Assembly (NCBI RefSeq): GCF_034043515.1
Contig: NZ_CP138214.1
Coordinates: 4,712,001-4,776,000 of the forward strand
Source of the DNA: Pseudomonas sp. MUP55
GTDB taxonomy: Bacteria; Pseudomonadota; Gammaproteobacteria; Pseudomonadales; Pseudomonadaceae
Length of the DNA: 64,000 nt
Direction of reading: 5' to 3'
The position numbers were made by a program, and so were the translations under genes. The notes under the pieces were generated by a model. It ran no database searches. It was not told the origin of the DNA and saw nothing but the letters and a program-made list of their open reading frames with translations. The number at the start of each line of letters is the position of its first letter. The first letter of the stretch is position 1. Positions 1 to 63,030 of this stretch are shown one piece after another.

Positions 1-575
1 TGCGCTCCCAGCGCCTGAACCAGATCACCCACGAACCGCACACCAAGCTCGACGCGCTGGTCAAAGCCCACGCCCCGTTTGAAACCCAGGCCAACTTCGC
101 CCGCTTCGTGGTGGCGCAGTACCTGTTTCAATCGGAATTGGTCGCGCTGTACAACGATGCCGAACTGAACCAGATCATCCCGGACCTGGCCCAGCGTTGC
201 CGCGCAGAGGCCGCCAGACTCGACCTGGGCGACCTCGACACCGACGTGCCTGCACCGGTTGCCGGTGCCGTGAACAACCCCGGCCGCGCCGAGGCCCTGG
301 GCTGGCTGTTCGTCTCCGAAGGCTCCAAACTGGGCGCTGCCTTCCTGATCAAACGTGCCGTGGGCCTGGGCCTGAGCGAAACCTTCGGTGCCCGCCACCT
401 GGGCGAGCCGGAGGGCGGGCGTGCCGAAGGCTGGAAACGCTTCACCCGCACCCTCGATGCGATGCAACTGAGTGCCGAAGAGGAAGCGGCCGCGGAGAAA
501 GGTGCGGTCGATGCGTTCGTACGCTTCACCGTATTGCTGGAACAGGCGTACGCTAGCGCCCCTGAACTGGCCTGA
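1..575 (+). CDS. Biliverdin-producing heme oxygenase, C-terminal part (5' end outside window)
   Basis: The frame is open from base 3, so the gene begins upstream of the window and about 190 residues are present. The product should open heme to biliverdin, CO and iron in the cytoplasm. The first visible residues include THEPHTKLD, which fits the proximal-histidine helix of bacterial PigA/HemO-type oxygenases. Further on, GWLFVSEGSKLGAAFL matches the glycine-bearing distal helix of that family. The usual family length is about 200 residues, so only a few N-terminal residues are missing. It ends at a TGA (573-575) just before a REP doublet. HemO-type or phytochrome-linked BphO-type cannot be settled without the upstream neighbour. 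Confidence 0.85.
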   Translation, partial: RSQRLNQITHEPHTKLDALVKAHAPFETQANFARFVVAQYLFQSELVALYNDAELNQIIPDLAQRCRAEAARLDLGDLDTDVPAPVAGAVNNPGRAEALGWLFVSEGSKLGAAFLIKRAVGLGLSETFGARHLGEPEGGRAEGWKRFTRTLDAMQLSAEEEAAAEKGAVDAFVRFTVLLEQAYASAPELA

Positions 576-16824: not shown

Positions 16825-16992
16825 TGTCGATCTCTCCTAATTGTGTTTTTCATCGGCCGGTATCAATTCCGGCGGGTTAAATTCCGGCGGTGCCGGTCGC
16901 GGTTCGCTGGGCGAGCCGCGGAAGTCTGTCTAGTGTCACCACCAGAAACCTTGCGGTGACCGTTACATAAGGGCGCCCAGGCTTATTACAAG
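16825..16992 (-). promoter_or_regulatory. groESL sigma-32 promoter and 5' leader
   Basis: On the minus strand, CTTGTA (16992-16987), a 13-nt gap and CCCTTATG (16973-16966) resemble the RpoH consensus CTTGAA-N13/14-CCCCATNT. The 140-nt leader that follows contains a direct repeat of GCCGGAATT and GC-rich arms. A conserved RNA structure called Pseudomon-groES is described upstream of groES in pseudomonads, and this leader is the corresponding location. I did not model the fold. Confidence 0.7.
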
Positions 16993-62355: not shown

Positions 62356-62619
62356 TTAACTGGCGCTGGAAGAGTTAAGTTCGGGCACCTCGTTCAAGTC
62401 CAACACCCGATCCACCATTAACTGAATACCCTCCAACATCCGGCAAATCGCCAAAACAACATCACGCTGTGCGCCAGCGACTTGAAATGCCAGATGACTT
62501 GTTAGCGCCTGCACCGAAGCAATGTCCTGCGAGGCATTGGCGAGTAAGGTTTCGTTATCGATACTGAGTCGGACGCTGAATAGCTGATCGGACGGGGGGT
62601 TTGGGCTGTCTTTGATCAT
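62356..62619 (-). CDS. DUF6124 family small protein
   Basis: An 87-residue protein of a Pseudomonas-restricted small family (DUF6124, resembling DUF3077). A variable N-terminus with prolines precedes a helical core (NETLLANASQDIASVQALTSHLAFQVAGAQ, then DVVLAICRMLEGIQLMVDRVLD). The helical pattern suggests a dimerising coiled protein with no enzymatic motif. AGGAG lies 9 nt before the ATG. It has an unusually elaborate 5' leader with its own promoter. No operon partner. Function unknown. Confidence 0.75.
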   Translation of the reverse strand: MIKDSPNPPSDQLFSVRLSIDNETLLANASQDIASVQALTSHLAFQVAGAQRDVVLAICRMLEGIQLMVDRVLDLNEVPELNSSSAS

Positions 62620-62641
62620 GGTAAAACTCCTGAAGAATAGG

Positions 62642-62770
62642 AGCTGCCAGCATCACTTGCAGATGATGGGTGGCAGCTGTGCGCGGGTCTGCAAGACCGA
62701 GTCAGAAGCACCTCGGCAGACCCAAAGGTCTCCCGCGCACAGCCACCAGAACACGATGACCATGAAAAGC
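62642..62770 (-). promoter_or_regulatory. Structured 5' leader of the DUF6124 gene (candidate cis-regulatory RNA)
   Basis: On the minus strand GCTGTGCGCGGG (62743-62732) pairs exactly with CCCGCGCACAGC (62687-62676), closing a domain that contains AGACC-TTTG-GGTCT and a CCGAG/CTCGG hairpin. A second hairpin, AGCTGCCA (62678-62671) with TGGCAGCT (62649-62642) and an inner CATCA/TGATG stem, lies just before the ribosome site. The strand GCTGCCACC can pair with GGTGGC (62747-62742) next to the first stem, or with TGGCAGC downstream, so two folds compete. This is the layout of an attenuator or translational switch. Confidence 0.65.
62653..62763 (-). CDS. Possible 36-residue leader peptide inside the DUF6124 leader
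   Basis: An ATG-started frame on the minus strand runs through the whole first RNA domain and stops inside the second hairpin. It begins MVIVFWWLCAGDLWVCRGAS and is rich in Trp (3) and Cys (3). If translated, a ribosome would melt one stem and stall or end within the other. Against it: the likely transcription start is only about 7 nt upstream, leaving no room for a ribosome site, so it would have to be leaderless. Treat as a hypothesis. Confidence 0.3.
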   Translation of the reverse strand: MVIVFWWLCAGDLWVCRGASDSVLQTRAQLPPIICK

Positions 62771-62791
62771 GCCACGATTATAGCGGCGCTT
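62769..62791 (-). promoter_or_regulatory. Promoter -10 of the DUF6124 unit inside an inverted repeat
   Basis: A perfect TATAAT (62782-62777, minus strand) lies between AGCGCC and GGCGCT arms (about 62769-62791). The corresponding -35 (TGTTAG at 17 bp) is poor, so an activator or repressor acting at the arms is plausible. Confidence 0.55.
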
Positions 62792-62927
62792 CCGAGCTTC
62801 TAACATTATTTCGGCGGGCTTGCAGTCCCGGTCGCTGAATTGGCAGCGACTGGCGAAGGTTAGGTGTGCGAGTTCCGAGGGACAACCTGAAAGGTTTGTC
62901 GGAAAGGTCTGAGGCGCCTGTATGGAC
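62792..62927. other. Unassigned structured region upstream of the DUF6124 promoter
   Basis: 136 bp with no gene. GTCGCTG and CAGCGAC (62831-62850) form a 7-bp stem. GACAACCT and AGGTTTGTC form another with one bulge, around 62881-62900. In one plus-strand frame a stop-free stretch ends VRCASSEGQPERFVGKV. I cannot assign a role. It may be a second RNA or part of a repeated unit that includes the leader. Confidence 0.4.
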
Positions 62928-63013
62928 GCCATCGGGGGCAAGCCCCCTCCCACATTGGACTGCATTCCAAAGCTGGAACTCGGTCAACTGTGGGAGGGGG
63001 CTTGCCCCCGATG
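62928..63013. repeat. REP doublet, outward arrangement
   Basis: GCCATCGGGGGCAAGCCCCC then CAACTGTGGGAGGGGGCTTG ending in CCCCCGATGAGGCC, with a 35-nt spacer. It lies between the DUF6124 control region and the NIF3-like gene terminator. Confidence 0.92.
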
Positions 63014-63030
63014 AGGCCCTGACGGCCAAC

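Follow-up and report, generated by a model that had tools for sequence, protein, structure and literature searches.

The leader of a small DUF6124 gene on the minus strand of the window, the 64-kb stretch of DNA analysed here, is a full-length C4 antisense RNA accompanied by an a1b1 element, and not a novel class of RNA. Its identity, its complementarity to the gene's own leader and its joint change with that target make it probable that the whole forms a chromosomal C4 antisense unit, in which C4, once excised, would block the translation of its own gene.

A C4 antisense RNA in the leader of a DUF6124 gene

All parts of the unit lie on the minus strand. A predicted promoter (62857..62885) combines a −35 box TTGTCC (62885-62880), a 17-nt spacer and a −10 box TAACCT (62862-62857), with coordinates read from the sequence. 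The Rfam family c4-a1b1 (RF03163), the upstream targets of C4, matches over its full length at 62863-62811 with 52.8 bits against a cut-off of 46.7. The a1 segment, CTGCAAG (62819..62825, also read from the sequence), is complementary over 7 bp to segment a′ of C4, and b1, TTAGAAGC (62796..62803), is complementary to loop b′ with one G-U pair; b1 was assigned by eye because the automatic search favoured a different 11-bp match within the same stretch. Between a1b1 and C4, the sequence and its folding reveal a hairpin followed by a U run (62765..62791), which resembles an intrinsic terminator and the end of isrK. An isrK match (RF01394, 62850-62762) spans the region from a1b1 to this hairpin; its 37.4 bits fall below the cut-off of 50 and do not place the locus in that family. 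C4 itself (RF01695) follows at 62753-62666, with 70.6 bits against a cut-off of 45 and model positions 1-87 of 87. Its loop b′, GCTTCTGA (62702..62709), forms 8 bp with the Shine-Dalgarno (SD) region, and its segment a′, CTTGCAGA (62688..62695), forms 8 bp with a2, TCTGCAAG (62656..62663), in the leader 5′ of the gene. A helix search placed a2 and also b2, TCAGGAGT (62626..62633), which holds the SD site, and gave a combined a+b score of 37. The gene (62356..62619) encodes 87 aa and matches PF19619 with 87.4 bits (cut-off 27); its neighbours in the window are, on our own reading of the proteins, presumably a phosphotransferase-type ORF and the C-terminal end of purL.

The reading of this region as a regulatory leader RNA, put forward in the initial annotation, is borne out by the sequence. 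The structural features it described are all present: the perfect 12-bp closing stem, formed by GCTGTGCGCGGG and CCCGCGCACAGC, lies within a 17-pair closing helix of the Rfam fold, two inner hairpins follow, and the 3′ strand of C4 (AGCTGCCACC) can alternatively pair with TGGCAGCT, immediately 5′ of the SD. The 181-nt leader folds at −85.5 kcal/mol, compared with −60.4 (sd 3.96) for 200 shuffles, none of which equals it (z −6.34). The initial annotation placed the feature at 62642-62770. C4 falls within this span, whereas the SD target at 62626-62633 and the upstream half of the unit, extending to about 62885 with the promoter, a1, b1 and most of the terminator, lie outside it. The annotation's statement that no class had been described gives way to the Rfam assignment, C4 with a1b1. 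An undescribed riboswitch was rejected on that assignment and on the inner loops, which are variable and matched to the target; none of the five Rfam matches in the window belongs to a riboswitch family.

Covariation was examined in 41 C4 copies from two genomes. Helix cells of the closing stem and hairpin 1 are paired in 98.9% of cases, against 28-47% in slid controls. Compensatory changes in the stem, which the initial annotation had named as evidence to look for, are found at 8 of 17 closing-stem pairs, and together with 5/5 pairs of hairpin 1 they bring the pairs changed on both sides to 13 of 22, a number reached by 0/500 shuffles; hairpin 2 was omitted from this count because of its variable loop length and a shifted alignment register in this part. 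Since a conserved promoter pattern lies upstream of the stem, the sequence gives no sign of the transcription start downstream of it that had been named as evidence against the leader.

Two further observations concern the window. A Pseudomon-groES leader RNA (93 bits in Rfam) lies at 16856-16966 on the minus strand, and a long inverted repeat at 62922-63020, between the C4 unit and the next gene, draws sub-threshold matches to microRNA families.

A family of C4 units in one genome

The genome of the window is complete (5.95 Mb, one contig) and contains 20 C4 copies, all above the Rfam cut-off. At E 1e-3, a1b1 has 19 matches, 18 of them directly upstream of a C4 and 5 reaching the family cut-off. 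With 16 matches to DUF6124 and 5 to DUF3077, the genome has 19 distinct loci of these families, and by position C4 lies upstream of 17 of them, in agreement with the earlier suggestion that the leader belongs to a dispersed RNA family preceding such genes; the loci without an upstream C4 match are near C1:1231573 and C1:3626613. The other three C4s (L005, L012 and L015) precede small ORFs of a different type, and the two that were tested, at L012 and L015, have no Pfam match. Neither C4, a1b1, DUF6124 nor DUF3077 was found in 14 control genomes. One a1b1 match, at C1:2749036-2749084 (minus strand; 36.0 bits, below the cut-off), has no C4 match nearby and is possibly a lone decoy.

The layout of the units is regular. 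An ATG lies 44-55 nt 3′ of C4 in 20/20 loci, preceded by an SD-like motif in all except L015 and L016 (18/20), and the ATG adjacent to b2 directly opens a frame of 70-121 aa in 16/20. At L001 and L002, a short leader ORF (24 and 52 aa, respectively) precedes the DUF3077 gene. L005 (C1:5483476) and L006 (C1:5057767) have matched C4 and target, but the frames opened by the b2-adjacent ATG span no more than 39 and 28 aa, respectively; the two copies may therefore be broken, or arranged in some other way. L004 (C1:3754108) and L010 (C1:3754886) are neighbouring units encoding near-identical proteins with different b′ and SD sequences, as if a recent duplication had been followed by divergence in specificity.

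The promoter pattern TTGnnn-16..18-TAnnnT is found 5′ of C4 at 14/20 loci of this genome and 14/19 of a second genome, G083, compared with 1.2/20 in shuffles; at L003, L004 and L010 it appears, by eye, just beyond the stretch searched. A 20-nt element, GGACGTTTCCGAGANAATCC, occurs seven times in the genome at up to two mismatches, each time before a C4 unit (L003, L004, L008, L010, L013, L014 and L018; positions C1: 837244, 2553749, 3753979, 3754757, 5130562, 5205222 and 5922077), with no occurrence of the backward-read control. It is absent from the window unit, and its placement suggests a regulator shared by this subset.

Each C4 is matched to the leader of its own gene

The a′ and b′ parts of C4 and the leaders of the genes were cut at fixed offsets, and the score was the best contiguous helix. 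For the genome of the window, b2 was located from the start codon, whose approximate position was set by hand; across genomes, all pieces were fixed relative to C4, which left the ranks in the first genome unchanged. There, the sum of a′ and b′ is best with the locus's own leader in 20/20 cases (L015 tied). For a′ alone, the own a2 comes first in 20/20, with 16 ties because C4 copies share a′ classes, and for b′ alone the own SD region comes first in 16/20. The observed totals, for a′ or for b′, were reached by 0/20000 permutations.

Other genomes show the same preference. In G083, the own target is best in 18/21 loci by the sum, 14/21 by b′ alone and 7/21 by a′ alone (0/10000 permutations), this set comprising 20 of the 21 listed C4s and one extra copy found in L085. 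It is best in 9/14 loci of G465, a genome of the sister genus (0/10000), in 5/6 of G418 and G390 (28/10000) and in 14/15 C4 loci of phages and other families, and is not preferred at 3/21 loci of G083 and 5/14 of G465. Among viral contigs, 108 of 114 pattern matches were usable, and the own target is best in 67/108, a count that near-identical contigs probably lower. One G083 locus, L080, has lost its C4 target: a palindromic repeat-like stretch takes its place, with no ATG in range. It was kept in the own-target ranking and dropped from the comparisons of viral targets and competing pairing.

Against shuffled targets, the score of 37 at the window locus was reached by 22/10000. Loci beating at least 99 of 100 shuffled targets number 20/20 in the genome of the window, 17/21 in G083, 8/14 in G465, 4/6 in G418 and G390, 15/15 among phage and other-family loci, 10/11, 14/15 and 22/24 in three sets of QslA loci (see below) and 92/108 among viral contigs. 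Complementarity alone cannot tell action in trans from a long-range fold in cis.

Joint change of C4 and its target at the window locus

When 398 genomes of the genus were searched with the protein of the window gene (E 1e-25), 30 gave a match, and 30 loci were compared. A C4-type stem precedes the gene in 20 of these relatives, and a simple stem search did not find C4 in the other 10. By motif search, purL lies within the 1.5-kb flank of 6/20 C4-bearing relatives, the window included, and 14 are without it. The a′/a2 pair is kept as CTTGCAG/CTGCAAG in 15/20; the remaining five have another a′ and may be paralogues. At purL-linked loci, b′ and b2 change together, with the combinations GCTTCTGA/TCAGGAGT, TTTCTGGTG/CACCAGAGG, CTGGTGGGA/TCTCACTAG and TTCCTAACAA/TTGTTAGGAG, and a further joint change, GATGCTCCTT/GAGGAGCATT, is seen away from purL. 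This joint change of b′ and the SD region under a constant a′/a2 is the strongest evidence for selection on the pairing. It is countered by the 8/20 relatives in which the longest contiguous b′/b2 helix is only 6 bp.

Proposed mechanism and alternatives

Citron and Schuster in 1990 and Hartmann in 1995 are said to have written the founding papers on C4. In phage P1, RNase P cuts C4 from a longer transcript, and b′ partly occludes the ribosome site of the phage's own antirepressor gene, ant (PMC5320573, PMC12197685); between P1 and P7, a′ confers specificity, a difference of 4 nt stopping cross-action (PMC5320573). Because the parts known from P1 are found here in the same order, we infer that the translation of DUF6124 is blocked by its own C4 and that a1b1 serves as a decoy. 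Transcription would start upstream of a1b1, at around 62850, and part of it would end at the isrK-like terminator, with read-through giving C4 and the DUF6124 message. C4 would then be excised from the leader, as by RNase P in P1, and fold, after which pairing of a′ with a2 and of b′ with the gene's own SD would prevent translation as in the phage. C4 would also bind to the upstream a1 and b1 copies, which would probably serve to tune or titrate it, and on the unprocessed RNA the competing stem would act as a fork between C4 folding and an a2 hairpin. Expression of DUF6124 would then require that C4 be in short supply or titrated away.

The main regulator could instead be the upstream RNA and not C4, if the short a1b1 transcript opened the SD on the read-through mRNA in the manner of IsrK, whose locus has the opposite sign in that the short RNA activates (PMC4825925). 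This known mechanism, the layout of a1b1 and terminator, the sub-threshold isrK match and the above-threshold isrK matches found 5′ of 13/15 C4s in phage and other-family loci all point in its direction. We nevertheless regard it as unlikely, given that the window match stays below the isrK cut-off and that, across the 20 loci of its genome, the locus-specific pairing of b′ is stronger with b2 than with the a1b1 stretch. Against the C4 reading itself, the pairing of b′ with b1 is weak overall in this genome (544/20000 permutations).

The design of an attenuator or riboswitch, as proposed in the initial annotation, would mean a metabolite-driven leader with two folds that acts in cis and is never a free RNA. 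The competing pairing on which this proposal drew is real and partly conserved: it scores 17.6 against 16.0 for other loci in the genome of the window (27/5000 permutations), 16.7 against 14.5 in G465 (4/5000) and 19.0 against 14.4 in phage and other-family loci (0/5000), and is not clearly above other loci in G083 (15.8 against 15.1, 405/5000, L080 excluded). As it exceeds the level of other loci in phages and other families, in the sister genus and in this genome alike, it gives the impression of an inherited trait of C4 leaders and not of a ligand switch. No conserved core of the ligand type was seen in the C4 copies; the inner loops are hypervariable among copies and are instead complementary to the SD region of the downstream leader, and the RNA matches C4 and no riboswitch family, all of which makes a cis-acting switch quite improbable.

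In phages, C4 belongs to the immunity system of P1 and P7 (PMC5320573, PMC12197685). Chromosomal C4s might silence incoming antirepressors, or their titration by these might free the small protein, and one G083 copy (L085) does fit the target of phage vB_Pae_U10 (L132) better than its own (43 against 38). Such a role in phage defence appears very improbable: when 40 chromosomal C4s were compared with 108 viral targets, there was no excess of double matches over permuted a′/b′ (p 0.6-1.0) in a permutation test that is coarse, the cut-outs having included stem bases. That the unit is a functionless, decaying prophage remnant is scarcely credible, despite the phage origin of C4, the persistence of phage-like short leader ORFs (that of L002 resembles phiAH14b), the short frames of L005 and L006 and the lost target of L080, since the window unit lies near purL (found in the 1.5-kb flank of 6 of the 20 C4-bearing loci, the window's own among them, and not of the other 14), its gene has no PHROGs family, and C4 and target still change together.

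Relation to known systems

The closest known system is the C4-icd-ant operon of P1 and P7, which shares the RNA fold, the a1b1 element upstream and the complementarity of a′ and b′ to the following gene's leader and SD; the short leader ORFs at L001, L002 and several qslA-like loci recall its icd. It differs from the present units, which are chromosomal, occur in many copies per genome and are followed by DUF6124 in place of an antirepressor or icd, as found in P1/P7 immI. A chromosomal counterpart is known from Acinetobacter baumannii AB5075, whose Group 1 sRNAs are C4-derived: 21 C4-like RNAs with varying a′ and b′ lie on one chromosome, and RNA-seq shows RNase P-like processing. Their target genes are not named in the text examined, in contrast to the matched gene behind each copy here (PMC5320573). 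IsrK-orf45-anrP of Salmonella Gifsy-1 (RF01394) shares an upstream terminated short RNA, a read-through message and alternative folds near the ribosome site; there, however, the short RNA activates, and the window falls below the isrK cut-off. The CI RNA of P4, with seqA and seqC, is likewise a processed RNA that pairs with two sites, one on its upstream and one on its downstream side, but acts through transcription termination on replication genes (PMC4825925).

C4 and c4-a1b1 have themselves already been published (PMC2864571). In three fluorescens strains, Silby in 2009 described 18, 28 and 9 copies of R178, a 101-bp repeat known from SBW25 that contains 11-bp inverted repeats (PMC2718517), and we would guess that this repeat may correspond to the present C4 loci. 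The open-access literature searched, in which subscription journals are mostly absent, yielded no paper linking C4 to DUF6124, DUF3077 or qslA, nor matched targets of chromosomal C4s. C4 is familiar as an immunity RNA of phages, and its chromosomal copies here come with targets, unlike those in the examined text on A. baumannii (PMC5320573). They provide about 20 natural antisense-target pairs per cell for testing the specificity of antisense RNAs.

The DUF6124 protein of the window matches no PHROGs family. Its predicted structure is a helical hairpin of two helices, for which Foldseek gives no significant or informative match. Its most likely role, by analogy with phage antirepressors and the QslA-family proteins under C4, would be that of a small helical protein which blocks some regulator by binding to it. 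In the open-access literature searched, the names DUF6124 and DUF3077 were found only in one paper, where a DUF3077 gene is among the mutations of a furfural-tolerant P. putida (PMC9630843), and the link to C4 offers a handle on both families.

Distribution and downstream genes

Of 298 genomes surveyed in the genus, 275 have C4, 274 of them above the cut-off; as no more than 14 candidates were scored per genome, the copy numbers in this survey are lower bounds. Across the order, it was found in 29/194 genomes (that of the window included), mostly with 1-3 copies outside the family, G312 having 6 and G467 4. The locus analysis left aside 29 loci from other genomes of the genus survey (L042-L070), and the Rfam runs on loci left aside L119, L121-L124 and L126-L130.

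The genes 3′ of C4 vary with the host. They are mostly DUF6124- or DUF3077-like in the genome of the window and in G083. Bro-N, a domain of phage antirepressors and BRO proteins, follows C4 at L074 of G083 (38.2 bits) and L091 of G465 (25.8 bits, cut-off 25.6), with a match below the cut-off at L099 (19.3); by eye, other copies in G465 and G418 resemble these loci, and leader ORFs, Bro-N-like and other phage-type proteins lie downstream of C4 in phages and other families. Conceivably, and we put this forward tentatively, the phage immunity RNA C4 has become in Pseudomonas a genome-wide system of about 20 antisense switches with mutual specificity, every one of them controlling a small anti-regulator of its own from the DUF6124, DUF3077, Bro-N or QslA family.

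QslA-family genes behind C4

A C4-linked gene of G465 matches PF18226, the LasR antiactivator QslA, with 31.5 bits (cut-off 25). QslA (PDB 4ng2) has no detectable profile similarity to DUF6124, with hhalign probabilities of 0.1 and 0.3; what they share is the same layout under C4, seen at QslA-family genes of other Pseudomonadaceae. In the genus of the window, C4 lies upstream of 11/20 QslA loci, including all 7 that score above 130 bits; of the nine without C4, eight score 46-52 bits and one (L254) 92. A second set from the genus, the best matches to the solved QslA, has C4 upstream in 12/12, three of these loci coming from genomes already in the 20-locus set. The sister genus (25 genomes) has it upstream of 15/15 QslA loci in 11 genomes, two of them G465 loci already included in the matching above, and C4 pairs best with its own target in 12/15. 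The best identity to QslA is 44% in the 398 genomes of the genus and 60% in the 25 of the sister genus, P. aeruginosa not being among them, and at the three closest loci, with 60, 58 and 55% identity to 4ng2, the SD of qslA itself is part of the C4 target.

A scan of named genomes by stem search located C4 398-404 nt upstream of 24/27 QslA loci, in a set that may repeat species of the others and has one record labelled as a cyanobacterial MAG, probably a contaminant. The a′/a2 helix is at least 7 bp long in 23 of the 24, and between orthologues a change in a′ is accompanied by one in a2. Many of these loci have a short leader ORF in between, like icd in P1.

QslA is a LasR-binding protein that sets the quorum threshold (PMC5767178, PMC13043044), and it also acts on MvfR (PMC6068238); C4 is not mentioned in the examined text of these three papers. 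The sequences suggest that C4 is a hitherto unsuspected layer of control on QslA-family quorum-sensing brakes, and the switch at these loci, if true, would act on the quorum-sensing threshold. Two loci with a QslA domain, L263 and L264, bear a radC RNA motif nearby in addition to C4.
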